From Microbacterium sp. (GTDB taxonomy: Bacteria; Actinomycetota; Actinomycetes; Actinomycetales; Microbacteriaceae), in contig JARBUN010000001.1 of assembly GCA_029239635.1 (NCBI GenBank), positions 1 to 64,000 of the forward strand: a DNA stretch of 64,000 nt, written 5' to 3'. The stretch's first letter is position 1; every line of letters begins with the position of its first letter. A program made the position numbers and the translations under genes. Shown here one piece after another: positions 24,701 to 62,702 of the stretch. The notes beneath the pieces were generated by a model that saw nothing but the letters and a program-made list of their open reading frames with translations, was not told the DNA's origin and made no database searches.

Positions 24701-24791
24701 GCCGGGCCGCGGTGCGTCCGGGTCCAGACCTCCGCCGCGAAGGCGGTGGACCCGGGCGCGCCGTCCCCGGGCTGCTGAGATACTCGACGCG

Positions 24792-25793
24792 ATGCCTCGT
24801 GTTCTCCGCTCCTCGCTCGCGCTCCTCGTCGCGCTCGCCGCGGGGGGTGCGGCACTGACGGCGTGCGCCCCCGTGTCGACGGCATCCCTCCCTCCGGTGA
24901 CGTCTCCGTGTGCTCCGGGGGCCGTCGAGGTGCCGCCGGGGGCGGAGAATCTGCAGAGCGCTCTGGATGCCGCCACCCCGGGCGACGTCCTCCAGCTGTC
25001 GCCGGTGACCTACTCGGGGCGGTTCCGCATCGCGGTGTCGGGCGAGGCGGAGCGTCCGATCGTCCTGTGCGGGGTGTCGGGTGCCGTCCTCGACGCCGGG
25101 GGAGCGCAGGACGGATACGCGCTGCACCTCGACGGAGCCTCGTTCTGGCACGTGCAGGACCTCGCGGTGCGCGGGGGGCAGAAGGGCGTCGTCCTGGATG
25201 CCGCTTCGCACACCGAGCTGTCGCGCGTGCGCATCTCGGATGTGGGGCAGGAGGGGCTGCACCTCCGCGCCGCGAGCAGCGACAACCGCGTCGAGGACAC
25301 CGTCGTCGAGCGCACGGGCCTCACGGACGCGAAGTACGGCGAGGGGGTGTACGTCGGCTCTGCGGAGGCCAACTGGTGCCGATACACGTCGTGCGCGCCG
25401 GACCGCAGCGATCGCAACGTCTTCGAGCGATTGGACGTGCGCGACACCACGGCCGAGGCACTGGACGTCAAGGAGGGCACGACCGGCGGCATCGTCCGCG
25501 CCTCGATCCTCGCGGTCGGCTCCGATGCCGTGGTGGACAGCGCCGTCGACCTGAAGGGCACGGGCTGGTCCATCGAGGGAAGTACCGTCACGGGTCCGGT
25601 GGATGCCGTGTCGGTGCACGTGATCCTGGCCCCGTGGGGGTCCGACAACACCGTCGCGACCAGCACCCTGCAGCCCGGACCGGGTGGGATGGGCGTCCAC
25701 GTCGTGGGGGACGCCCGCTCGGCGGGGAACGTCGTGGGGTGCGACAACAGCGTCCCCGGGGACGCGTCTGCGGGGAACATCCCCTGCCGGTGA
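24792..25793 (+). CDS. Parallel beta-helix lipoprotein
   Basis: A 333-residue exported protein. A signal peptide with lipobox LTAC (C25) is followed by a right-handed beta-helix (pectate-lyase-like). Repeated rungs include FWHVQDLAVRGGQKGVVLD, TELSRVRISDVGQEGLHL and NRVEDTVVER. Cysteines in YTSCAPD, VVGCDNS and NIPCR may form disulphides. Such folds bind, cleave or epimerise acidic polysaccharides; no catalytic set can be named. GATACT lies close to the ATG, suggesting a leaderless start. It precedes a GT2/beta-helix operon by 73 bases, which supports a polysaccharide role. Confidence 0.8.
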   Translation: MPRVLRSSLALLVALAAGGAALTACAPVSTASLPPVTSPCAPGAVEVPPGAENLQSALDAATPGDVLQLSPVTYSGRFRIAVSGEAERPIVLCGVSGAVLDAGGAQDGYALHLDGASFWHVQDLAVRGGQKGVVLDAASHTELSRVRISDVGQEGLHLRAASSDNRVEDTVVERTGLTDAKYGEGVYVGSAEANWCRYTSCAPDRSDRNVFERLDVRDTTAEALDVKEGTTGGIVRASILAVGSDAVVDSAVDLKGTGWSIEGSTVTGPVDAVSVHVILAPWGSDNTVATSTLQPGPGGMGVHVVGDARSAGNVVGCDNSVPGDASAGNIPCR

Positions 25794-25804
25794 CCCGTAC
25801 GCGG

Positions 25805-25852
25805 TAGCCTTCAGTGTCTCCCCCGGGCATCGAATCGCGTTACCCGAACGCG
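25805..25852 (+). promoter_or_regulatory. Promoter and inverted repeat before the GT2 operon
   Basis: TAGCCT (25805-25810) is a -10 candidate. CGCGTT (25836-25841) and AACGCG (25847-25852) form a 6-bp inverted repeat with a 5-base spacer in the leader, immediately before the GAGGGGGAG ribosome site. It could be an operator, for instance for the XRE protein encoded by the third gene, or a small hairpin controlling translation. Confidence 0.45.
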
Positions 25853-25866
25853 CGAGGGGGAGAGTG

Positions 25867-27144
25867 ATGGCCGACGCGTCCTTCGGCGAGCAGTTGATGT
25901 GGGTGCTGCCGTTCGGCTACCTCGGCATCGTCTCGTGGGGTTTCTGGCTCATCCGCAAGATCCTGGCCGCGACGGCGCGCCCCGTGAAGAACCTCTATCG
26001 CACGACGACCACCGTGGTCGTTCCCTCGTTCCACGAGGACCCCGACGTGCTCCTGCGCTGTCTGCAGACCTGGGTCCGCCAGGGCCCGTCCCGGATCATC
26101 ATCGTCCTCGACGTGGCCGATGTGGAGGCGCAGTCCCGGATCGAAGCGCTCGCCCTGCCCTCGGTCGACGTCGTGATGTTCCACCACCGAGGGAAGCGGT
26201 CGGCGCTGGGGGTCGGCATCCGGATGGTCGACACCGAGCTGATCCTCTTCGTCGACTCCGACACGGCGTGGGAGGACGGGATGCTGGATGCCGTGCAGAT
26301 GCCGTTCATCGATCCCGCGGTGGGGGCGGTGAGCACGCGGCAGAACGTCTACCTGCCGAAGTCGAGCGTGTGGCGCCGCGTGGCCGACTGGATCATCGAC
26401 CTCCGCTACACGGACTACGCCCCCGCGATGGGGCGCTTCGGCGGCATCATCTGCGCGTCGGGGCGGACCGCGGCGTACCGCACCTCGGTGATCCAACCGC
26501 GCGTGGAAGACCTCGAGCACGAGATCTTCTTCGGCAAGGAGTGCATCGCGGGCGATGACGGCCGGATGACGTGGCTCGTGCTGTCCCAGGGCTTCCGCGT
26601 CGCGCACCAGGACAGCGCGCGCGCCCTCTCGATGTTCCCCGGCACGTTCCGCGCCTTCGTCAAGCAGCGGGTGCGGTGGAGTCGGAACTCGTTCCGGTGC
26701 TACCTGACCGCGATCCGCCACGGCTGGGTCTTCAAGGTCCCGCTCATCTCGCAGATCACGATGATGCAGATCCTCCTGACGCCCTTCACGATGTTCGTGG
26801 CGTTGGCGTACGTCGTGCTGGCGGCGCGGGCGCAGCACCCCCTCCTCGGGCTCGGACTCGCGATCGTCTGGCTCTTCGTCGGTCGCGGCATCCGCGGGAT
26901 GTCGCACCTGTGGCGGCGTCCCGAAGACATCGTGCTGCTGCCGCTGGTGACGCTCGTCATCATCTTCATCGCCCTCCCCATCAAGATCTACGCCCTCTTC
27001 ACGATGAACAAGCAGGGGTGGCTGACGCGCTCGGCCGACAGCCAGGGCGGTGAGGGCCAGACGGAAGCGAGCCTCGGCGGCGAGGGACAGTCCGCCGAGA
27101 GCCTCGGGCTCGTCTCGCAGGAGACGAAGGCGGCCCATGGCTGA
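25867..27144 (+). CDS. Processive family 2 glycosyltransferase (second)
   Basis: A 425-residue membrane GT of the hyaluronan/cellulose synthase type. One N-terminal helix (~10-30) is followed by a GT-A domain with VVPSFHEDPD (51-60), DSD at 130-132, GDD at 229-231 (acceptor acid region) and QRVRW at 267-271 (QxxRW). Three C-terminal helices cover ~291-380. The tail has a short tandem repeat (GGEGQTEASL / GGEGQSAESL). It is first in a three-gene coupled operon: its stop lies 5 bases beyond the start of the next gene. Product probably a linear surface polysaccharide; sugar unknown. Confidence 0.9.
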   Translation: MADASFGEQLMWVLPFGYLGIVSWGFWLIRKILAATARPVKNLYRTTTTVVVPSFHEDPDVLLRCLQTWVRQGPSRIIIVLDVADVEAQSRIEALALPSVDVVMFHHRGKRSALGVGIRMVDTELILFVDSDTAWEDGMLDAVQMPFIDPAVGAVSTRQNVYLPKSSVWRRVADWIIDLRYTDYAPAMGRFGGIICASGRTAAYRTSVIQPRVEDLEHEIFFGKECIAGDDGRMTWLVLSQGFRVAHQDSARALSMFPGTFRAFVKQRVRWSRNSFRCYLTAIRHGWVFKVPLISQITMMQILLTPFTMFVALAYVVLAARAQHPLLGLGLAIVWLFVGRGIRGMSHLWRRPEDIVLLPLVTLVIIFIALPIKIYALFTMNKQGWLTRSADSQGGEGQTEASLGGEGQSAESLGLVSQETKAAHG

Positions 27145-29257
27145 GGACGGTGCGATCACGGCGCAGGAACGCGGGGACAGTCACTTCGCCTTCCGCGGGG
27201 TCGCGCGCGTCTTCATGGTGGTCGCGGTGGTCGTGCTCGTGGCGGGGGTGATCCTCGCGGGCAACTTCGTGCACACCGGATCCTTCCTGCCCTGGCTGGA
27301 CGACGACGCGCGCTCGAGCGCCGCCGTGGTGGGGCCTGCGCCGGACCCGTCCGGCAATGCCGACGGAGCCGATCCGGCAGCGGCGTCGCAGACGGCCGCC
27401 GATCGCGTGGCCGCCGAGGACACGCGCCTGTCCGCGGTCGCCGCGCTGGGCAGCACCGACCCCGCCCTCATCGACGCGTGGAGCACGGTCGTGCTGGGGG
27501 CCCGGAACGGTCAGCCCACGGGGTACAGCCTCTCCGACCTCGTCGCCCTCGGCGCCGTCCGCCAGGACGACCCGACGACCTTCACGCTGCAGCGCAACGT
27601 CGTCGTCCGCTCCGGAGCCGAGCTCGACCTCGTCGCGCCCGGTGCGACGCTGCGGATGACGAGCTCGCCCGCGGCGAGCACGAGCATCGTCGGGTGGGGT
27701 GGCACCGTGCGGTTCGGCGGTGCCGACGGATCGCCGTTGCGGGTCGCGTCGTGGGACGACACCGTCGCCGCCCCCGACACCGACGAGGGGGACGGACGCG
27801 CGTACATCCGCGTTCGAGACGGCGTCCTCGCCTCGACCTTCACCGACTTCGCCGACCTCGGCTACTGGAGCGGGCGCACCGGGGGACTCGCCATCACCGG
27901 CAGTGGCACGGTGGATGCCACCGCTCAGCTCGAGAACTCGACGATGGCGGGGCTGCACTACGGCTTCTTCGCGTCGGAGAGCACCGGGGTCGGCATCTCG
28001 GACTCGACGATCAGCGACTCGACCCTCACGGGCATCGAGCTGACCAACGGCGGCCACGACTTCCGGGTCGAGCGCACCACCGTCCGCGATTCGGGCTCGG
28101 ACGGCATCGCGCTCTCCCGACAGTCGCGAGCCCTCAGCCTCACCGGGGTCACGGTGGAAGGGGCCGCCGGCTGGGGCGTCCGGGTCGACGGCTCCGCCCT
28201 GGCGGACGGACCGACGACCGGCGGCTACGGTCTGACGCCGTCGAGCGAGTTCACCCTGGTCGACTCCCGCGTGCAGGACAACCGGGACGGGGGCGTGCGC
28301 GTCATCTCGACGGACAAGACCGAGATCCGTCAGTCCACGGTCGACGAGGACCGCACGGCCGTTCTCGTCGAAGGACCGTTGACGGGGCTGGCGGTGACGA
28401 ATGTCGATCTCTCGTCGAGCGAGCTGCGGGGTCTGGACATCACCGGCCGGATCACGGATGCCAGGGTCTCGGACTCGCGCATCGTGGGACGCCGCATCGC
28501 CACCGAGATCACCGGGGCCGCGGTCGTGATGACCGGGAACGACCTCACCGTCGCCGCGGGGTCCGCCGTCGAGCTCGCGGAGGACGCGCGCGCCGACATC
28601 ACCGGCAACACCTTCCACGGGGTCGGGCAGGACGCGGTCGCGATGTGGGCGGGCTCGCGCTCGATGCAGGCGGAGAACGACGAGAGCGACTGGACGTTCC
28701 AGTGGGCCTGGGTCGGATGGATGAACGAGCACCCGATGATGTGGATGTGGGCGCTCGTGCTTCTCATCCCCGCGATCGGTTTGCCCGTGCTGTGGAGGCG
28801 GCGGCGAGAACATCGTCGACTCCGTGAGCTCCTCCGTGAGGCGCTGCTCCGGCACGGCGAGGAGCAGGTCGCGGCCTATCGCGCGCTGCCGACCCCGGAG
28901 CCCCTTCCCTCGGCAGGTCCGTTGTCCTCGGCGACGGCTTCGTCCGCGGCCTCCGCACCGCCGGCCGCGGACGGAGCGACCGACCTCCCGGGCACCCCGC
29001 ACACGGTTCCCCCGCGTCCGCGCGCGCCCCGTGCTCCGGCGACCTCGCGCCCGCGATCGTTCGCGGACCTTCGCACCGGCGTCCTCGAGGGACGCACGTT
29101 CGCGTCGCTCCGTGAGTTCGCCATCGCCGCTGTCGTCGAGGGCGGGTACTCCGTGTCGACGATCTCGCGTCTGTTCCGCATTCAGCAGTGGCGTCTGCAG
29201 CAGTGGGTGGATGACGCCCTCTCCGTCGACGCCACCTCGACGAGGGGACTCCGATGA
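27137..29257 (+). CDS. Membrane beta-helix protein with cytoplasmic HTH-like module
   Basis: A 706-residue protein with an unusual build. An N-terminal helix (~22-45) leads to an extracytoplasmic parallel beta-helix (~140-510) with many rungs (NSTMAGLHYGFFAS, STISDSTLTGIEL, TTVRDSGSDGIAL). A second membrane helix (~534-553), a basic coiled stretch, a Pro/Ala linker (~584-636) and a ~55-residue C-terminal module (640-694: SFADLRTGVLEGRTF ... RLFRIQQWRLQQWV) follow. The last looks like a three-helix HTH and also ends the XRE protein encoded next. The beta-helix may bind or epimerise the polymer made by the coupled GT2; the cytoplasmic part could signal to regulation. Confidence 0.8.
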   Translation: MAEDGAITAQERGDSHFAFRGVARVFMVVAVVVLVAGVILAGNFVHTGSFLPWLDDDARSSAAVVGPAPDPSGNADGADPAAASQTAADRVAAEDTRLSAVAALGSTDPALIDAWSTVVLGARNGQPTGYSLSDLVALGAVRQDDPTTFTLQRNVVVRSGAELDLVAPGATLRMTSSPAASTSIVGWGGTVRFGGADGSPLRVASWDDTVAAPDTDEGDGRAYIRVRDGVLASTFTDFADLGYWSGRTGGLAITGSGTVDATAQLENSTMAGLHYGFFASESTGVGISDSTISDSTLTGIELTNGGHDFRVERTTVRDSGSDGIALSRQSRALSLTGVTVEGAAGWGVRVDGSALADGPTTGGYGLTPSSEFTLVDSRVQDNRDGGVRVISTDKTEIRQSTVDEDRTAVLVEGPLTGLAVTNVDLSSSELRGLDITGRITDARVSDSRIVGRRIATEITGAAVVMTGNDLTVAAGSAVELAEDARADITGNTFHGVGQDAVAMWAGSRSMQAENDESDWTFQWAWVGWMNEHPMMWMWALVLLIPAIGLPVLWRRRREHRRLRELLREALLRHGEEQVAAYRALPTPEPLPSAGPLSSATASSAASAPPAADGATDLPGTPHTVPPRPRAPRAPATSRPRSFADLRTGVLEGRTFASLREFAIAAVVEGGYSVSTISRLFRIQQWRLQQWVDDALSVDATSTRGLR

Positions 29258-30099
29258 GCGACGAGTTCGATCCCGATGACCGGCTCGACGAGGTGCTCCG
29301 GTCACTCGCCGACCGGGTGAAAGGCCTGCGGCGCGACCGCGGGCTCTCGGTGAGCGATCTCGCCTTCGAAGCGGGGCTGTCGGAGGGGCGATTGCGGGCC
29401 GTGGAGTCGGGACGGACCGCGGCGTCCCTGTCGACCCTCGTCGCCCTGGCCGAGACCTTCGAGATCGGTCTTCCCGACCTGTTCTCGGACCCGTCCCGGA
29501 CGAACGTCTCGGAGCAGGATGCCGAATCGTCGAGCCCGCACGTCGTGCCGAGCGCCGTGGTGTGGGGCGGGGAACTCCCGCCGGCTCCCTGGGTCGGTGC
29601 GCCCTCGTCGACGGTGAGCGTCCCCGCGGACACGATGCCGACGCCGGGCCCGGGGGAACAGGCGTTCATCGCGACCGAGAAGGTGTGGGGTGGCCCGCTC
29701 CCGCCGGCGCCGTGGATCGCGGAGGCGCCGCTCGCGCCCGCGCCCGTCCGCGAGCCCGTGCCCGTCCCCGCTCCGGAGGCGCCTCCGGCTGAGATCGTGC
29801 CCCACCGTGCGAGTCCGGTTGCGGCCCGCGCCCACGACTACGCCCGCGCCCACGGCATGCGTGAGACCTTGGCATACGTGTTCGTGGCCCCGCGTTCGCC
29901 CGAGAGAGCGACGCCCCGGACGTTCTCCGACCTGCGGACCGGCGCTCTCGCGGGTCGCGAGTTCCGGTCGCTGCAAGAGTTCGCCGTGGCATCCATCGTC
30001 GAGGGCGGTCACGCGCTCGCCGATGTCGCGCGGGTGTTCCGGATCCCCGCGTGGCGGCTCGAGCAGTGGGTGATCGAAACCGGGCACACCCCGCACTGA
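29254..30099 (+). CDS. XRE-family regulator with C-terminal HTH-like module
   Basis: A 281-residue protein whose start overlaps the preceding stop as ATGA. Residues ~14-76 form an XRE helix-turn-helix (LRRDRGLSVSDLAFEAGLSEGRLRAVESGR). A disordered Pro/Ala middle contains two copies of WGG-x-LPPAPW (104-113 and 145-154). The C-terminal 221-275 module (TFSDLRTGALAGREF ... RVFRIPAWRLEQWV) is 31/55 identical, by my manual alignment, to the C terminus of the upstream beta-helix protein. It may autoregulate the operon from the inverted repeat at 25836. The module could let it contact the membrane protein or shared DNA. Confidence 0.85.
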   Translation: MSDEFDPDDRLDEVLRSLADRVKGLRRDRGLSVSDLAFEAGLSEGRLRAVESGRTAASLSTLVALAETFEIGLPDLFSDPSRTNVSEQDAESSSPHVVPSAVVWGGELPPAPWVGAPSSTVSVPADTMPTPGPGEQAFIATEKVWGGPLPPAPWIAEAPLAPAPVREPVPVPAPEAPPAEIVPHRASPVAARAHDYARAHGMRETLAYVFVAPRSPERATPRTFSDLRTGALAGREFRSLQEFAVASIVEGGHALADVARVFRIPAWRLEQWVIETGHTPH

Positions 30100-51465: not shown

Positions 51466-51792
51466 CGGGTGTCTCCAACTCAGTGACCGTCGCCCCTTCG
51501 CCTCTGTCTGAGGAAGGGACGAGCCGGTGATTCACGCGACGGACGCGCACTGACGATCATTGAGGCCACCCGCGGGGGACACCGGTCCAAAGAGCGGTCT
51601 TTCATCCCGTCCGTCATCCCCTCATCACCCTTTCGGCATCACACCCTCCTCCTCCGCCGGGGCGCGGTGCGGCGCCCCCGCTCTTTCGCCCGTCCGCGCA
51701 GCGATCAGGGTCGTCCGGGGGTGTCGAGAGGGTGTGCCTATGCTGCGTCGGGCTCGGCGGCTCGTCGCCGGCCGTGCGAAAGGCGGACACGA
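51466..51792. other. Divergent promoter region between LuxR and BY-kinase genes
   Basis: A 327-base gap without a convincing gene. TATGCT at 51739-51744 is a probable -10 box for the Wzz-BY-kinase gene about 50 bases downstream. Pyrimidine-rich DNA fills 51600-51700. No clear palindrome was found for the LuxR-type regulator. Confidence 0.5.
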
Positions 51793-53451
51793 GTGGACAT
51801 GCAGAGGGTGGTCCGCGTCCTGCGGGCCTACTGGAAGGCGATCGTCGCCCTGACCGTGGTGGGAGGCCTCGCCGGACTGGGATGGAGTGCGATCCAGCCG
51901 CGGGTGTACACCGCCGACGCGAGCGGGTACGTGGCGGCGATGTCGTCCGACAACTCGACCGGGGCGGCTCTGGCAGGCGACCAGCTGGCCTTGTCGAAGG
52001 TCAAGTCGTTCATCGACATGGGGTACTGGCGCAGCGTCGCGGAAGCGGCCAAGGAGGATCTGGGCCTGCCGGACAGCCCGGAATCGCTCGTGCAGCGCAT
52101 CCAGGTGTCCAATCCCGTCGACACGGTCAACGTTCGTGTGGATGCCGCCGGCCCGACGCCGGAGTCCGCCCGAGACCTCGCCGAGGCATGGATCCGCGGG
52201 ATGACGAAGCAGGTGGACGGCCTGGACTCGGCGGGCTCGGGTCAGGGGGCGGTCCGACTGGTGGCGGGCGACTCCGCTCGACTCCCCACCTCTCCCTCGT
52301 CTCCCAACGTTCGCGTCAACGTGGCGATCGGCGCGATCGTCGGCGCGATCCTCGGTGTCGTCTTCGCGCTCGTGCGACGGGCCTTCGACCGCCGTCTGCG
52401 GTCGGCCCGCGATATCACGGACGCCGTGGACACCTCCGTCGTCGGGGTGTTGCCGGTCGACAAGGAACTCGCCTCCGGGCGCGCGGTCTTCTCGTTCGAC
52501 GACATCAAGGATGGGCGCGGATCGTTCGCGCACAAGGAGGCCATGCGCGAACTGCGCACCAATCTCCAGTACGTCGACGTCGATCACCCGGCGAAGGTGA
52601 TCGTGATCACCAGCCCGCTGCCCGGTGACGGCAAGTCGACCACGGCCGCCAACCTCGCCGTCAGTATCGCCGCCACGGGTCGATCGGTGATCCTCATCGA
52701 CGCGGACATGCGGCGTCCTGTGCTGGGTGGGATCTTCGGCTTCTCGGATGACGTGGGTCTCTCGGATGTCCTCGCCGGGCGCGCGCAGATCGAACAGGTC
52801 GCTCATCAGGTGGACGAACATGGACGGCTCTTCGTGGTCGCGGCGGGGCGCACGCCGCCCAATCCGACGGAGATGGTGGGCTCGCAGCGCATGCAGCAGC
52901 TGGCTCGCAGGCTGTCCGACGACATGATCGTCGTCGTCGACTCGCCGCCCACCCTCGCGGTGGCTGATGCCGCGGTGATCGCGAGCTGGGCCGACGGGGC
53001 TGTCCTCGTGGTCACGGCGGGACGCACGACGGACGACATGCTCGTGCGGGCGTGCGACAACATCGGCAAGACGCGTGGCCGGCTCCTCGGCGTCGTGTTG
53101 AACCGCGTCCCGCTTCGCGGTGCCGACTCGAGCTACTACGGGTCCCAGTACGCCGGCTATTACGGCTACGGTGCGCCGACGAGGACGCGACGCCCCTGGT
53201 GGAGGTCGGAGAGCGCGAAGCGCCCCGGCGTCGATGACGCCGACGTCGCGGCGACCCCGGGTCCGCGTCGCCACGCCGCCCTGCCCCCCGACAACGTCAG
53301 TGGACTGCGTACGCTTTCGCAGCGGAGGAAGGTGTCGGGGCAATCGGGTGGGCCGTCGGGTGAAGAGGGCGAGGTCGCCCCGCCGGCGACGCAGCCCGTG
53401 GTCTCCGTGCAGGAAGAGCCGGCGAGAGCGAGTCGTCGTCGTCGCTCCTGA
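51793..53451 (+). CDS. Wzz-like chain-length protein fused to BY-kinase
   Basis: A 552-residue polysaccharide co-polymerase of the actinobacterial single-chain type. Two helices bracket an extracytoplasmic Wzz domain (VLRAYWKAIVALTVVGGLAG ... AIGAIVGAILGVVFALV). The cytoplasmic bacterial tyrosine kinase follows, with Walker A GDGKSTTAANLA, A' LIDADMRRP and B VVDSPP. A tyrosine cluster (SSYYGSQYAGYYGYG) downstream is the likely autophosphorylation site, and a disordered basic tail ends the protein. Start GTG 51793 fits AAAGG at 51779-51783; ATG 51799 is possible. It should control EPS chain length with the phosphatase at 56269. Confidence 0.92.
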   Translation: MDMQRVVRVLRAYWKAIVALTVVGGLAGLGWSAIQPRVYTADASGYVAAMSSDNSTGAALAGDQLALSKVKSFIDMGYWRSVAEAAKEDLGLPDSPESLVQRIQVSNPVDTVNVRVDAAGPTPESARDLAEAWIRGMTKQVDGLDSAGSGQGAVRLVAGDSARLPTSPSSPNVRVNVAIGAIVGAILGVVFALVRRAFDRRLRSARDITDAVDTSVVGVLPVDKELASGRAVFSFDDIKDGRGSFAHKEAMRELRTNLQYVDVDHPAKVIVITSPLPGDGKSTTAANLAVSIAATGRSVILIDADMRRPVLGGIFGFSDDVGLSDVLAGRAQIEQVAHQVDEHGRLFVVAAGRTPPNPTEMVGSQRMQQLARRLSDDMIVVVDSPPTLAVADAAVIASWADGAVLVVTAGRTTDDMLVRACDNIGKTRGRLLGVVLNRVPLRGADSSYYGSQYAGYYGYGAPTRTRRPWWRSESAKRPGVDDADVAATPGPRRHAALPPDNVSGLRTLSQRRKVSGQSGGPSGEEGEVAPPATQPVVSVQEEPARASRRRRS

Positions 53452-53460
53452 CGGTGAACA

Positions 53461-53512
53461 GAAAGAGGAGAAGGGGCGTCGATCCACGGATCGACGCCCC
53501 TTCTCCTCTTTC
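53461..53512. terminator. Strong bidirectional terminator
   Basis: A perfect 25-bp stem (53461-53485 with 53488-53512) has GAAAGAGGAG at one foot and CTCCTCTTTC at the other. It separates the convergent BY-kinase and sugar-transferase genes. Confidence 0.95.
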
Positions 53513-53516
53513 GTCG

Positions 53517-54989
53517 TCAGTGCGCCGTGCCTCCCGGGGCGACCACCGCTTTGAAGGTGCGCGCGAGGATGACGATGTCCCCGATCAGCGACCAGTTCTC
53601 GACATAGAACAGGTCGAGCCGGATGGCGTCGTCCCACGCGAGCGCCGATCGTCCGCTGACCTGCCACAGCCCGCTCATGCCCGGACGGACGATGAGACGT
53701 CGGTGTGCGTCGTCGTCGTAGAACGCGACCTCCGCGTCGCGCTGAGGTCGCGGTCCGACCAGACTCATGTGTCCGCTCAGCACGTTGAACAACTGCGGCA
53801 GCTCGTCGAGCGAGTACTTCCGCAGCCATCGTCCGACGCTCGTGATGCGGGGATCGTTCTCGACCTTGAACAGGGGCGACCCGTCGCGCCCCTGCTCCGC
53901 GAGCAGCTCGTGCAGGCGTGCATCCGCGCCGTCGACCATCGAACGGAACTTGAGCATCCCGAAGTGCGTTCCCCCCTGGCCCACGCGCTGCTGGCGATAG
54001 AGCACGCGACCCGGGCTCGACATCCGCACCAGCGCGGCCAACGTCAGCAGAACGGGGGAGAGGAGCAGGATGAGCGTCGCCGAGCCGACGATGTCGAAAG
54101 CGCGCTTGAGGACCTTCTGCGTCGTGGAGTACTGGGGCGTCTCGATATGGACGAGGGGAAGGCCCGCGACCGGACGCGTGTGGATGCGAGGTCCTGCGAC
54201 ATCGGCGAGGTTGACGGCGACGACGAGGTGCTGCCGCCCGGGCTCGAGGATCCAGCCGATGCGCCGGATGTCCTGCGGCTGGAGGTGTGCTCCACCTGTC
54301 ACGAGGACGCTGTCCGCCTGAAGCTCGTCGAGAAGCTCTCGCAGTCGGCGGGAGTGTCGGTCTGTCCAGCCCGCGTCGAACCCCTCCGCGGTGACCGTGT
54401 GCACCCCGACGACCGTGAATCCGACGCCGGGGTGGCGTGCAAGCTCGGAGGCGACTCGAGCGTTCTCGTTTTCCCCGCCCACCAGGACGACGCGCGTCGC
54501 CATCGACCCCCGGCGCCGCTGGGCCACCAGCCAGGATCGACACGCCGTCCGCGCGCCGAGGAGCACGGCGGTGCCGGCGGGGAGACTCAGCAGGAAATAG
54601 CCCCGGGAGAGGTCGATGCTGCCCAGGTAGGCGCCGATCGCCACGAGACCGAAGAGCTGGAACGACGCCCCGATGATCAGCCGATGTTCGGTGATGCCGT
54701 GCCCGAGAACACGTGGATGCCGGCTCCCGCTCAGGGTGAGCGCGAGGAGCCACGCGCCGGAGAGCAGGATCGACACGGTCGTGTAGCTCACGGGTGCCGA
54801 GCTGACCTCCGTCGGATGCGGCCCCAGCCACAGCACCTGGGCTCCGAACACCGACGTCAGAACGACGGCCGTGTCGACGACGGAGAGGATCCGCGCGTAG
54901 CGGCGCTCCCACGGCGTCGTCGGTGTCCGCGCGACCGACGGTGGCGCAGAGGGGGATGGTGAACTCAGAGTTGAGACGGCGAGATTCAT
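53517..54989 (-). CDS. Initiating sugar transferase, WbaP/CpsE type (1)
   Basis: A 490-residue polyprenyl-phosphate sugar-1-phosphate transferase that starts repeat-unit synthesis on undecaprenyl phosphate. Five N-terminal helices (~30-150) are followed by a Rossmann-like domain (VVLVGGENENARVASELARHPGVG) and a sixth helix. The catalytic domain has LKRAFDIVGS, FGMLKFRSM, SLDELPQLFNVLSGHMSLVGPRP and a C-terminal DLFYVENWSL. All catalytic landmarks are present. A paralogue sits at 61143. Convergent with the BY-kinase gene. Confidence 0.93.
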   Translation of the reverse strand: MNLAVSTLSSPSPSAPPSVARTPTTPWERRYARILSVVDTAVVLTSVFGAQVLWLGPHPTEVSSAPVSYTTVSILLSGAWLLALTLSGSRHPRVLGHGITEHRLIIGASFQLFGLVAIGAYLGSIDLSRGYFLLSLPAGTAVLLGARTACRSWLVAQRRRGSMATRVVLVGGENENARVASELARHPGVGFTVVGVHTVTAEGFDAGWTDRHSRRLRELLDELQADSVLVTGGAHLQPQDIRRIGWILEPGRQHLVVAVNLADVAGPRIHTRPVAGLPLVHIETPQYSTTQKVLKRAFDIVGSATLILLLSPVLLTLAALVRMSSPGRVLYRQQRVGQGGTHFGMLKFRSMVDGADARLHELLAEQGRDGSPLFKVENDPRITSVGRWLRKYSLDELPQLFNVLSGHMSLVGPRPQRDAEVAFYDDDAHRRLIVRPGMSGLWQVSGRSALAWDDAIRLDLFYVENWSLIGDIVILARTFKAVVAPGGTAH

Positions 54990-55339
54990 AAGTGCTCCGC
55001 TAACGGTGCCCGAGGGTCATGGAGGGGGCCGCCGTCGGGGCACGAGACATGCGGCGGGCCTCGGAACTGTGCCACCGGGCGGATGAGCCGACGGCGCGGT
55101 CAGCGGGGTGCCTGCGCGGGTGAATCGGTCGGGCGAGGATGACCGTCCAGCACATGCGCTGGCGTGGCTCGGTCCGCATTCGTCGCGTCGCACGGGTCCG
55201 TCTGTACTGATCCCCTGTGAACTCACCCCTGGATCGAGGTCCCTCACCTGATTCCACACGCGGCGGGGCGGAGGACGCGACCAACGATGAGCATGTAAAC
55301 ATGTTCATGTGAGCGTTGCTCTCCGATCAAGCTGGGACG
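54990..55339. other. Intergenic region upstream of XRE gene
   Basis: A 350-base gap. No gene with a plausible ribosome site was found. It holds the promoter of the reverse-strand sugar transferase and, near 55292-55310, a cluster of CATGT half-sites before the XRE gene. Nothing else is recognised. Confidence 0.55.
55292..55310. promoter_or_regulatory. Three alternating CATGT half-sites
   Basis: CATGT-aa-ACATG-tt-CATGT (55292-55310) makes two overlapping palindromes with 2-base centres. It lies 30 bases before the XRE start and likely overlaps its promoter. It suits cooperative binding by a small XRE-type dimer, probably autoregulation. Confidence 0.6.
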
Positions 55340-55615
55340 ATGACGGACGCGCCCGACCCCTGGAACGACTTCGCGCGGGAGCTGGGGAGACGGCTCCTCC
55401 GTGCGCGCGCGGAGAGGGGCCTGTCGCAGGAGCACGTCGCGCACGCGGCCGGTCTCGCGACGTTCACCTATCGCAAGCTCGAGAAGGGCGAGTCGAATCC
55501 GGGAACGCCGGCCAATCCCCGTCTCAAGACGCTCGTTGCGCTCGCCGAGGTTCTGGAGATGTCGCTCGACGAGCTGATCCCGGCGCGTCCAGGGGGTGTG
55601 GCACCCGGGCGTTGA
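55340..55615 (+). CDS. Small XRE-family regulator
   Basis: A 91-residue protein consisting almost only of an XRE helix-turn-helix (LLRARAERGLSQEHVAHAAGLATFTYRKLEKGESN ... TLVALAEVLEMSLDELI). I prefer ATG 55340; a TTG at 55316 would add 8 residues and has no ribosome site. It lacks a ligand domain. It lies between the EPS genes and may be local or phage-type; no other phage gene is near. Confidence 0.85.
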   Translation: MTDAPDPWNDFARELGRRLLRARAERGLSQEHVAHAAGLATFTYRKLEKGESNPGTPANPRLKTLVALAEVLEMSLDELIPARPGGVAPGR

Positions 55616-59742: not shown

Positions 59743-61068
59743 TCAGGGACGACCCATGCCGTGGTACGTCCACCCGGCGGCACGCCAAGCGGCGGCGTCG
59801 AGGCAGTTGCGGCCGTCGATCACGACGTGCCCCCGCGTCAGCGTCGCCGCGTGCGCCGGATCGAGCTGGTGACGGTATTCGTCCCATTCGGTCACGACGA
59901 TGACGGCATCGGCATCCTGCAGCGCTTCGTCGCGGTCGTGCACGTACGTCAGCTGCGGGTGAACGCGCTGCGCGTTCTCGATCGCGGCGGGATCGGTGAG
60001 GGTGACGTCGGCACCGAGGCCGTGCAGACGGACCGCGACGTCGAGAGCGGGGGAGTCCCGGATGTCGTCGCTGTGGGGCTTGAACGCGGCGCCCAGCACG
60101 GTGACCTTCTTCTGGAAGACGGAACCGCCGAGGGCCTCGCTCGTCAGCTCGACAGCGCGGTCGCGCCGGCGAAGGTTGATGGCGTCGATCTCGCGGAGGA
60201 ACGCGACGGACTCGCCGCGGCCGAGTTCTTCGGCGCGAGCGGAGAACGCGCGGATGTCCTTCGGGAGGCATCCGCCGCCGAAGCCGATACCCGCACCGAG
60301 GAAGCGGCGCCCGATGCGCGCGTCGTGCCCGATCGCGTCGGCCAGGGTCGTCACGTCGGCGCCGGTGACCTCGGCGATCTCGGCGATTGCGTTGATGAAG
60401 CTGATCTTCGTCGCGAGGAAGGCGTTGGCGGAGACCTTCACGAGCTCAGCCGTGGCGTAATCCGTGACGATGAAAGGCGTGCCCTTCGCGATCGACGGGT
60501 GATAGACCTCGCGCAGGATCTGCGCCGCGCGCTCGCCCTCAGGGGTCGCGGTGCCCTCTGCGAACGGCACACCGGCCACCAGACGATCGGGGTCGATGGT
60601 GTCCTGAACGGCCCAGCCCTCACGGAGGAACTCCGGGTTCCACACGAGGGTCGCTCCCGTCTCGGACACGCGCGGGGCCAGCGTCGCTGCGGTGCCGACC
60701 GGAACCGTGGACTTGCCCGCGACGAGGTCTCCCTCGGACAGGTAGGGGAGCAGGCCGTCGACGGCTGCGTTGACGTAGGTGAGGTCGGCGGCGTAGCCGC
60801 CTGCCTGCTGCGGGGTGCCCACGCCGATGAAGTGGACCTTCGCGCCCTGGGCCGCCGACATGTCGGTCGTGAACGAGAGGCGACCCGACGCGATGCCCTC
60901 GGTCAGGATCTCCTGCAGTCCGGGCTCGAAGAACGGGGCCTCGCCCTTGCTCAGCGCGGTGATCTTGCGCTCGTCGACGTCGATGCCCACGACCTCATGG
61001 CCGATGGAGGCCATCGCCGCCGCATGCACCGCACCCAGGTAACCGCACCCCACTACAGACAAACGCAC
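59743..61068 (-). CDS. ugd: UDP-glucose 6-dehydrogenase
   Basis: Oxidises UDP-glucose to UDP-glucuronate with two NAD, supplying an acidic sugar for EPS. The 441-residue protein has the NAD motif VGCGYLG (6-12), NPEFLREG (144-151), the Lys/Asn pair in VKVSANAFLATKISFINAIAE and the catalytic Cys267 in GFGGGCLPKD. The C-terminal UDP-binding domain is complete. It lies between the UbiB group and a sugar transferase. Start GTG 61068. Confidence 0.96.
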   Translation of the reverse strand: MRLSVVGCGYLGAVHAAAMASIGHEVVGIDVDERKITALSKGEAPFFEPGLQEILTEGIASGRLSFTTDMSAAQGAKVHFIGVGTPQQAGGYAADLTYVNAAVDGLLPYLSEGDLVAGKSTVPVGTAATLAPRVSETGATLVWNPEFLREGWAVQDTIDPDRLVAGVPFAEGTATPEGERAAQILREVYHPSIAKGTPFIVTDYATAELVKVSANAFLATKISFINAIAEIAEVTGADVTTLADAIGHDARIGRRFLGAGIGFGGGCLPKDIRAFSARAEELGRGESVAFLREIDAINLRRRDRAVELTSEALGGSVFQKKVTVLGAAFKPHSDDIRDSPALDVAVRLHGLGADVTLTDPAAIENAQRVHPQLTYVHDRDEALQDADAVIVVTEWDEYRHQLDPAHAATLTRGHVVIDGRNCLDAAAWRAAGWTYHGMGRP

Positions 61069-61142: not shown

Positions 61143-62702
61143 TCACGCGGCGGTGTCGCCCGGCACCAGGGCGGCGCGAGCGGTCTTGCCGAGAATGACG
61201 AAGTCGCCCAGGAGCGTCCAGTTCTCCACGTACGACAGGTCGAGGCGGACCGATTCCTCCCACGACAGCGACGAGCGGCCGCTGACCTGCCACAGCCCCG
61301 TGATGCCGGGCTTGGCGAGGAAGCGACGGTGCACGTGATCGGCGTACTGTGCCACCTCGGACGGGAGCGGCGGACGAGGACCGACGAGGGACATCGAGCC
61401 ACCGATGACGTTGAACAGCTGCGGCAGTTCATCCAGGCTGAACTTGCGCATCACCCGGCCGATGGGGGTCACGCGAGGATCGTTCTTCATCTTGAACAGC
61501 ACCTCGTTGCCCGAGTCGCGCTGCTGTTCGGCGAGATCGTGCAGCAGCTCCTCGGCGTTGACGACCATCGAGCGGAACTTGATCATCGTGAACTCGGTGC
61601 CGTGGAAGCCGATGCGCGTCTGGCGGAAGAAGACCGGACCGCTGCTCGACAGGCGGACGGTGATGGCGAGGAACGCGAGCAGCGGGCTCAGGAGGATCAC
61701 CCCGGCGATACTCGCCAGGAGGTCCACCGTGCGCTTGAGGAAGACCTGTCCACGGGAGAACCGAGGGGTCTCGACGTGGATGAGGGGGAGCCCCGCGACC
61801 GGCCGGGTGTGCAGGCGCGGGCCGGCGATGTCGATGATGCTCGGGGCGAGGACGAGGTGCTGACGCCCGGCCTCGAGGCTCCACGAGATCTCCTTGACCT
61901 TGTCGGCGGGGAGCTCGTCGGCGCTCGTGACGGCCACGGTGTCGGCGCCGGTGGCGGAGAGCGCCCGGGAGACATCCCCGACGTGTCCCATCACGGGAAT
62001 GGAGGTCCCCGGGATGACGTCGGCGATCTTGCCGTTGGGCACGCAGGCGCCGACGACGCGGTATCCGGCGCTGGGGGTGCGCGCGAACTCCCGCGCCAGC
62101 TGGGTGACCGAGGTGAGGGAGCCGACCAGGAGGACGTTGGCGGAGTACTTGCCGTTCGACCGCTGGACGATGAGCCACTGGCGCCAGAGCCAGCGCGTGA
62201 AGACGAGGACGATGATGCCGGCGGGGAGGGAGATGAGGAGGTATCCGCGCGCGACGTCGATCTGCGTCAGGAAGGCGAGGATCGCCACGGCGCCGAACAC
62301 CCGGAAACTGGAGTCCACGATCCGGACGTACTCCTGAGAGCCGGTGCCGATCACACGGTCGCTGCGGGAGTCGACGAACGACAGAGCCCACATCCACGCG
62401 ATGATGAGCAGCGCCGAGAAGATCCAGTACGACAGGTCGGTGATGCGACCGTCTTTGCTGGCCGCGACGGCGACGTTGCCGGTTCCGAACCAGACGAGCT
62501 GCGTGCCGTACACGACCCACACCAGGGAGGCGAGGTCGGTGAGGAAGAGATTGCGGCGGTATCGCAGTCGCCACCTGTCGAGGGGGTGCCGCGTGACCGA
62601 GGTCGGCGTCGAAGGCGCGGGGGCATCCACGACGGGGTCGGAACCCCCGGCGTAGCTGTCCTGCGACGTCGATGTCGCGTCGACTCTCAGGTCAGACGTC
62701 AC
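61143..62702 (-). CDS. Initiating sugar transferase, WbaP/CpsE type (2)
   Basis: A 519-residue paralogue of the protein at 53517, with the same plan: five helices, Rossmann-like middle (VLLVGSLTSVTQLAREFARTPSAG), sixth helix and catalytic domain (FLKRTVDLLAS, FTMIKFRSM, SLDELPQLFNVIGGSMSLVGPRP, DLSYVENWTLLGDFVIL). The N terminus has a 45-residue disordered extension. GTG start at 62702. It sits upstream of ugd on the same strand, 74 bases away, so the pair is probably an operon. Two such enzymes suggest two polymers or two initiating sugars. Confidence 0.93.
   Translation of the reverse strand: MTSDLRVDATSTSQDSYAGGSDPVVDAPAPSTPTSVTRHPLDRWRLRYRRNLFLTDLASLVWVVYGTQLVWFGTGNVAVAASKDGRITDLSYWIFSALLIIAWMWALSFVDSRSDRVIGTGSQEYVRIVDSSFRVFGAVAILAFLTQIDVARGYLLISLPAGIIVLVFTRWLWRQWLIVQRSNGKYSANVLLVGSLTSVTQLAREFARTPSAGYRVVGACVPNGKIADVIPGTSIPVMGHVGDVSRALSATGADTVAVTSADELPADKVKEISWSLEAGRQHLVLAPSIIDIAGPRLHTRPVAGLPLIHVETPRFSRGQVFLKRTVDLLASIAGVILLSPLLAFLAITVRLSSSGPVFFRQTRIGFHGTEFTMIKFRSMVVNAEELLHDLAEQQRDSGNEVLFKMKNDPRVTPIGRVMRKFSLDELPQLFNVIGGSMSLVGPRPPLPSEVAQYADHVHRRFLAKPGITGLWQVSGRSSLSWEESVRLDLSYVENWTLLGDFVILGKTARAALVPGDTAA

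Follow-up and report, generated by a model that had tools for sequence, protein, structure and literature searches.

A candidate alginate-type operon in Microbacterium whose AlgG-like protein suggests an enzyme turned sensor

The window, a 64,000-nucleotide stretch of DNA from Microbacterium sp. (assembly GCA_029239635.1, contig JARBUN010000001.1, positions 1 to 64,000 of the forward strand), contains a run of four plus-strand genes at 24792-30099, all with high GC content at third codon positions, that encode a beta-helix lipoprotein, a family 2 glycosyltransferase (GT2), a membrane-bound beta-helix protein, referred to here as the AlgG-like protein, and an XRE-family protein (Table 1). The nearest named relative of the GT2 is that of M. 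testaceum NS283 (96% identical). A first-pass annotation had described these genes, their order and their overlaps as a compact polysaccharide operon with its own paired regulators; we confirm the layout and find that the gene set is conserved well past the window. From sequence comparisons and structure models, the window operon appears to be a variant of an alginate-type system in which the AlgG-like protein lacks the AlgG-type histidine and carries a module shared with the adjacent XRE protein, an arrangement that suggests an enzyme turned sensor.

Table 1. Features of the operon and associated elements in the window
Feature	Position	Strand	Remarks
Lipoprotein beta-helix polysaccharide lyase, predicted PsAly (PL31) type	24792..25793	+	333 aa; lipobox LTAC by eye
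GT2 glycosyltransferase, hyaluronan-synthase/NodC-like	25867..27144	+	ATG 25867, stop 27144; 425 aa
Membrane AlgG-like right-handed beta-helix protein	27137..29257	+	706 aa; 8-base overlap with GT2
XRE-family protein	29254..30099	+	281 aa; overlaps the gene of the 706-aa protein by 4 bases, ATGA
HTH-like module, C-terminus of AlgG-like protein	29054..29218	+	Sequence matches and model
HTH-like module, C-terminus of XRE protein	29917..30078	+	Sequence matches; same module as in AlgG-like protein
UDP-glucose 6-dehydrogenase	59743..61068	-	TIGR03026; TuaD-like, below that model's cut-off
-10-like element GATACT	24779..24784	+	7 bases 5' of lyase start codon; possible leaderless promoter, putative role
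Conserved promoter-like element TAGCCTTCAGTGTC 5' of GT2	25805..25818	+	Sequence conservation; putative function

The core of the operon is the pair of GT2 and AlgG-like genes. A scan of a species-genome collection for relatives of the GT2 gave 213 loci, of which the best 79 were kept, so that the distant end of the family lies outside the sample; an AlgG-like open reading frame (ORF) starts between -14 and +61 bases from the GT2 stop codon in 76 of them, and the other three end at a contig edge. Of the unit of GT2, membrane protein and XRE gene described at first pass, this pair is conserved, and the XRE gene adjoins it in one subclade only. The common form of the operon comprises 58 loci from Streptomyces, Actinomadura, Pseudonocardia, Modestobacter, Kribbella and others, usually in the order GT2, AlgG-like protein, lyase and UDP-glucose 6-dehydrogenase (UGD). 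With thresholds of at least 100 bits for the lyase and at least 200 bits for UGD, the two are found in 50/58 and 42/58 of these loci, and in 46/46 and 41/46 where at least 5.2 kb downstream is covered; in a few, such as L070, UGD lies upstream instead. The tree rows of the GT2 family span 13 actinobacterial families, and the family occurs in eight of 79 sampled genomes of the class (E 1e-100) and in seven of 59 of the genus (E 1e-30, one of them distant at 2.7e-59), the window's own genome being included in both counts. Genomes and loci that appear to be identical (G009/L052, G068/L047, G070/L050, G018/L055 and G042/L123) were counted once. The window and L045-L065, from Microbacterium, Nocardioides and Aeromicrobium, form a single derived clade with a Shimodaira-Hasegawa-like approximate likelihood ratio test (SH-aLRT) support of 100 (22 of 80 tree rows). 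Here the lyase gene is upstream of GT2 in 21/21 loci, on the same strand in 16 and on the opposite strand in five, two of which (L064 and L065) were read from match positions because of their overlong GT2 ORFs. A derived and a common operon occur together in M. testaceum FXH-28, on different contigs (L049 and L121).

For the lipoprotein, Pfam reports only the generic Beta_helix family, below cut-off (3.4e-4). A profile of 71 sequences (the window protein and 70 relatives, alignment A5), by comparison, matches the alginate lyase PsAly (PDB 6kfn) at E 1.9e-70, PsAly being, as we take it, a member of polysaccharide lyase family 31 (PL31). The AlphaFold2 (AF2) model, with a predicted local distance difference test score (pLDDT) of 92.3, is a single right-handed beta-helix for which Foldseek places 6kfn at rank 1 (32% identity, target TM-score (TMt) 0.86). 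According to the available part of the PsAly study, Tyr184 and Lys221 are catalytic and Glu181, Glu216 and Asp219 are cation ligands (PMC6796002). The corresponding catalytic residues of the window protein, Y187 and K227, and those of the first cation site, E184, E222 and D225, are invariant in all 71 aligned sequences, as are the equivalents of PsAly Lys128, His154, Arg156 and Lys252, and Asp250 is kept in 67/71. On sequence and model, the window lipoprotein is predicted to be a PsAly-type polysaccharide lyase with its catalytic residues intact. Uncharacterized PsAly homologues have been noted in Gram-positive bacteria including Streptomyces, in the same available text (PMC6796002). A lipobox pattern is present in 20/21 lyases of the derived clade versus 14/50 of the others, a count that we take only as a hint given the loose pattern and the relatedness of the rows.

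The GT2 (Pfam PF13641, E 4.7e-28) has hyaluronan synthases as its nearest solved structures, at E 1.6e-20 with the single sequence and 1.7e-25 with a profile, and NodC as its nearest curated NCBIfam family, although the NodC score of 133.6 bits is far under the cut-off of 550 bits. The motifs DSDT, GDDGR and QRxRW, presumably the DSD, GDD and QxxRW motifs of GT2 enzymes, are invariant in 6/6 aligned sequences. Searches of NCBIfam and the PDB with the GT2 surfaced no Alg8 model or structure, Alg8 itself not having been compared. Because it is hyaluronan-synthase/NodC-like, the GT2 is probably processive. The sugar donor is addressed by the dehydrogenase: the window UGD scores 308.9 bits against UGD versus 170.2 against GDP-mannose dehydrogenase in the PDB, and the UGD of the Pseudonocardia operon 381 versus 189.9 bits, a comparison that covers these two sequences. 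The window UGD gene lies 30 kb from the operon, and relatives 81-84% identical to it occur in the GT2 loci of three Microbacterium (L055, L058 and L059); it is the likely source of UDP-glucuronate. We consider it likely, with good confidence, that the window and its relatives carry an alginate-type operon of the synthase-dependent kind, whose product is an extracellular polymer of uronic acids. A hyaluronan operon proper was also considered and would suit the GT2 and UGD, but it would not account for the AlgG-like and PsAly-type genes. Further exopolysaccharide-type genes lie near UGD in the window (51667-54989 and 61143-62702, including a polyprenyl glycosylphosphotransferase-like gene, judged from translations) and may form a separate exopolysaccharide locus.

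The 706-residue protein matches Pfam Beta_helix (2.4e-17), and a profile of 52 sequences (alignment A4) matches AlgG structures at E 9e-12. Its AF2 model (mean pLDDT 85.4) has AlgG at all of Foldseek ranks 1-4 (TMt 0.54-0.67) and consists of a helix at 17-46 with the first transmembrane segment (TM1), a beta-helix at about 117-521, a helix at 533-581 that includes TM2, and a cytosolic tail. By hydropathy, most of 76 relatives have one N-terminal TM segment and one behind the beta-helix (at 22 and 535 in L045), while a few lack one or have an extra one. The NCBIfam AlgG model matches 18/52 relatives (best 1.6e-9); at E 0.001 it matches nothing in the window's own genome, and of 14 controls one gave a match, below cut-off. 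The alginate-type synthase/epimerase logic suspected at first pass is supported, and the analogy is stronger than was then known, since the lipoprotein is homologous to an alginate lyase and UGD is part of the operon in relatives. NosD, by comparison, was rejected as a label: the Pfam and NCBIfam NosD matches seem to reflect a beta-helix in general, those of the lipoprotein falling short of the cut-off and that of the membrane protein exceeding the one set by Pfam.

The presumed catalytic site separates the two forms. The histidine of the DPHD motif of AlgG is the probable proton abstractor, according to the available part of PMC4444821, and the window protein has T303 where its relatives have this AlgG-type histidine. 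Alignment A4 holds 52 of the 77 AlgG-like proteins (the window and 76 loci), five truncated rows and, for size, 20 full-length ones having been left out; since these 20 are mostly but not all near-copies and include L081, which has no such histidine, the count was redone on 89 sequences, 77 first and 12 second genes. The histidine is present in 54/56 first and 12/12 second AlgG-like proteins of the common form (66/68) versus 0/21 in the derived clade. The second genes come from tandem AlgG-like pairs in twelve loci of Actinomadura, Microbispora and Actinoallomurus (L086, L088, L090, L092, L094, L095, L102, L109, L110, L111, L113 and L115). The neighboring arginine is found in 32/32 common-form versus 1/20 derived sequences, R436 and R505 each in 0/20 derived versus 28/32 common-form sequences, and several asparagines are lost in the derived clade as well. 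The common-form protein may be a C5-epimerase, and from these residues we judge it fairly probable that the AlgG-like protein of the derived clade has lost this activity; the joint claim of uronic-acid polymer operon and epimerase loss stands slightly better than even. A mannuronan epimerase was rejected as a label for the window protein in view of the absent histidine, and the fold relation stands.

What the derived proteins have gained is a C-terminal module of about 52 residues, found in 20/20 full-length AlgG-like proteins of the clade (the window and 19 loci) and absent from the 56 common-form proteins searched, four of them truncated. The matches are weak in L063 (1.8e-7) and L064 (1.3e-4), the latter falling under threshold in a larger search. 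The first-pass claim that regulator and beta-helix protein share this module is borne out: the two are 56% identical over 55 columns and are the only two module matches at E 1e-4 in their own genome (completeness of the assembly 85%); the resemblance is thus not accidental. In the AF2 model the module folds into three confident helices (658-667, 673-680 and 684-705). Pfam helix-turn-helix (HTH) families match six, four and three of 12 members, all below cut-off, with the best match per family at E 0.0007 to 0.006, and a PDB search with the module returned a single match, at E 0.77. The module is narrowly distributed: 15 of the 59 genus genomes sampled carry it, the window's own included, as do two of a further 59 from the family, each from another genus and both with weak matches (about 1e-7).

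The XRE protein has a clear HTH_3 domain (3.3e-9; 37.1 bits against a cut-off of 23), and its linker contains the repeats VWGGELPPAPW and VWGGPLPPAPW (VWGGxLPPAPW), whose copy number varies in relatives. Its 4-base overlap with the AlgG-like gene is kept in 8/8 named loci of the subclade that reach that far (L045, L046, L048, L049 and L051-L054; the contig of L046 ends inside the XRE gene), and in G068 and G070, too, the AlgG-like gene is followed by an XRE gene. Elsewhere in the derived clade, L057, L058 and L059 have a different kind of module protein nearby. A small XRE-like ORF at 55316-55615 of the window shares, in a short segment, 42% identity with the XRE domain.

We now put forward a conditional mechanism for these operons. 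The GT2 would polymerize and export a chain based on UDP-glucuronate, the AlgG-like protein would sit at the exit with its groove holding the nascent chain, and the lyase would trim or release the chain, cutting stray or finished polymer, a role comparable to that given to AlgL in the available part of PMC4444821. In the derived clade the chain holder would no longer epimerize via the known histidine route and its module would signal toward the cytosol, and we infer that the window protein is a former epimerase turned chain-binding receptor. In the subclade of the window, the AlgG-like and XRE proteins would act via their common module, either by module-module contact or through one shared partner, and chain occupancy would set XRE activity so that each chain reports its own synthesis. 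Signaling from the AlgG-like receptor to XRE, whose entire basis is the shared module and the gene overlap, is a tentative proposal that we would not favor over its negation. A shade more doubtful still is the full scheme, in which an enzyme was converted once to a transmembrane glycan receptor, the dead AlgG-like beta-helix clamping the nascent uronan and the tri-helical module capturing and releasing XRE.

Several results weigh against this reading of the operon and its AlgG-like protein. Identity to AlgG is just 11-14% in Foldseek, and the window protein has no NCBIfam AlgG match at 0.01 (E 0.15). The common form keeps the histidine alone of DPHD, the full motif being absent, so the term epimerase goes beyond proof for any member. 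UGD is near in just 3/18 derived loci. The derived clade is a single event, and histidine loss and module gain are therefore not independent repeats. A non-HTH model, CPSase_L_D3, matches three of the 12 module members about as well as the HTH families do, and the net charge of the 12 module peptides, -2 to +3, is near neutral, unlike that of a typical DNA-binding HTH, which speaks for protein contacts over DNA binding. No second module protein was found in the covered stretch of L055, L056 and L060-L065, and in G018 a module-bearing AlgG-like protein is the one module match genome-wide. Finally, XRE-module genes occur without a module-bearing membrane protein in six of the 59 Microbacterium genomes, five of which lack the GT2 family.

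This last result bears on an alternative that we regard as possible and no less probable than signaling from the AlgG-like protein to XRE, namely that XRE is an unrelated housekeeping regulator, a chance neighbor in one subclade, and that the module is a general docking domain with no part in the operon. Of the 15 genomes that contain the module, ten have no AlgG-like protein bearing it; the GT2 family is missing from nine of these, and one (G042) has the common form (the assemblies of G016 and G059 are 86-88% complete); by translation, six have XRE-type genes, three have the GYxPLEMP type and one, G007, has a chimera. In the operon-less pair G016/G020, omega is 0.13 for the XRE domain, 0.33 for the linker and 0.10 for the module, indicating purifying selection, so the XRE protein has work outside the operon. 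The first-pass view of XRE as the operon's own regulator is weakened by these genes and the selection on the tested pair, and no operon remnant was found before the XRE genes of G016, G020, G059 and G065. Nevertheless, the kept overlap and the common module are rather specific for a chance neighbor, and other module proteins adjoin UGD or galU genes. In addition, scars in G007, G039 and G042 and a nested XRE tree suggest an older joint arrangement that some genomes have since lost. The chimeric ORF of G007 (L018, 7419-8042) fuses a lipoprotein-like signal peptide to the XRE linker and module, apparently left by deletion of the lyase, GT2, AlgG-like and XRE N-terminal sequences: 26 bases around the lyase start codon, including the stretch of the -10-like element, are 92% identical to the window with the XRE linker close behind, and the flanks are 75-82% identical. 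In G042 a stretch of 99 bases before XRE is 74% alike to the GT2 upstream region of L052. Operon-less rows of the XRE tree are nested among operon rows, which takes four changes, two of them forced by starred branches, in a tree with two long rows and modest supports. G007, G039 and G042 are most simply explained by loss of the GT2 and AlgG-like genes with XRE retained; transfer, or in the other genomes an older lone XRE gene, is also possible. The idea that the operon landed beside an old XRE neighbor is weakened by the nested tree and the scars.

Somewhat less probable, and in our view unlikely, is that the derived AlgG-like protein is still a C5-epimerase with rearranged residues, its module merely recruiting proteins or positioning the synthase. 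D214, R221 and W244 of the beta-helix are kept in 52/52 rows, R328, in the AlgG arginine region, is present in 14/20 derived rows, and the fully intact lyase would favor an active epimerase; against this stands the loss of the histidine in all 21 derived sequences, together with the neighboring arginine, R436, R505 and several asparagines. It is improbable that the module-bearing AlgG-like protein is a regulator whose own HTH binds DNA, in the layout of ToxR and CadC, the class of one-component transmembrane regulators. Its topology would fit, with a linker and an HTH-like domain of three helices behind TM2, but the charge of the module is about zero, the HTH matches of its single members stay under curated cut-offs, and the XRE protein, which carries the same module, has a DNA-binding domain of its own. 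Equally improbable is a true alginate (mannuronan) made from GDP-mannuronate, since both dehydrogenases compared fit UGD over GDP-mannose dehydrogenase and the closest relatives of the GT2, hyaluronan synthase and NodC, use UDP-sugars, even though the nearest epimerase fold is AlgG and the nearest lyase structure, in the available part of its description, prefers polymannuronate (PMC6796002).

Upstream, the gene of the lipoprotein is separated from GT2 by a 73-base gap without overlap that holds a TAnnnT plus TKCASTGTC element, and with this conserved element in the gap the lipoprotein gene may form a separate transcript. TKCASTGTC has a single match in the 64 kb window. The combined element lies 5' of GT2 in ten loci (L045-L054) and 5' of the XRE gene in G039, and TKCASTGTC was not found 5' of GT2 in L055-L061. 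A scan for a sigma-70 consensus and terminators gave no match, and no palindromic operator near the GT2 promoter was seen by eye in the alignment of upstream regions. The second kind of module protein is marked by a GYxPLEMPxxWEP motif (L041 8429-9145, L042 8468-9238, L058 5956-6762, L059 6016-6708, L020 7588-8181 and L057 13596-15161), with an N-terminal TM-like stretch in L041 and L057. Judged from translations, its neighbors are galU (L041), glmS and UGD (L042), glmS and the lyase gene (L058 and L059) and, close by, acpS and alr (L020); module proteins thus recur close to UDP-sugar supply genes.

If the proposed assignment is true, the unmodified operon represents an alginate-type pathway of actinobacteria and could bear on the proposed actinobacterial origin of brown-algal alginate genes. 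Reviews hold that brown algae may have obtained alginate-specific genes from an actinobacterium (PMC8307928, in its available part), and a 2024 study, also available in part, states that an actinobacterial origin is not strongly supported for GMD and that no alginate pathway is known from Streptomyces with PL41 (PMC11468063). With its GT2, AlgG-like protein, lyase and UGD genes, the operon described here is a concrete candidate for testing such an origin. We recognized no description of the operon or the module in literature titles and the beginnings of abstracts, in a search that mostly did not cover the subscription literature; Michel et al. 2010, cited in the reviews, may mention the actinobacterial genes. 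The derived clade, for its part, offers a natural case in which a catalytic residue was lost and a signaling-like domain gained, with the unmodified form available for comparison.

Among known systems, the alginate operon of Pseudomonas and Azotobacter, with alg8, algG, algL and algD, likewise groups a GT2 synthase, an AlgG-like protein, a lyase and a nucleotide-sugar dehydrogenase, as does the common form described here. It differs in that our hosts are Gram-positive, the lyase is PsAly-type rather than a polysaccharide lyase family 5 (PL5) AlgL, and the dehydrogenase, in the two sequences compared, is UGD-like rather than AlgD. Unlike AlgG, the AlgG-like protein has TM anchors and, in the clade of the window, lacks the histidine and has a cytosolic module. 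Hyaluronan synthase and NodC are the closest solved and curated relatives of the window GT2, and hyaluronan operons include a UDP-glucose dehydrogenase partner, as does the operon of the relatives, in which, however, the GT2 is coupled to an AlgG-like protein. The Curtobacterium plasmid pTCL (L005) has a coupled trio of GT2 (about 30% identical to the window GT2), glycosyl hydrolase and UGD, another synthase operon that combines GT2 and UGD in one run; none of its annotated neighbors is named as a beta-helix or module protein, and its six-frame ORFs gave the GT2 match alone, with no module match. With PsAly of Paenibacillus sp. FPU-7 (PDB 6kfn; PMC6796002, available in part), the predicted window lyase shares the family, the fold, the catalytic tyrosine and lysine and the cation site, but unlike PsAly the window-type lyase is encoded beside a synthase and, in the window's clade, carries a lipobox.

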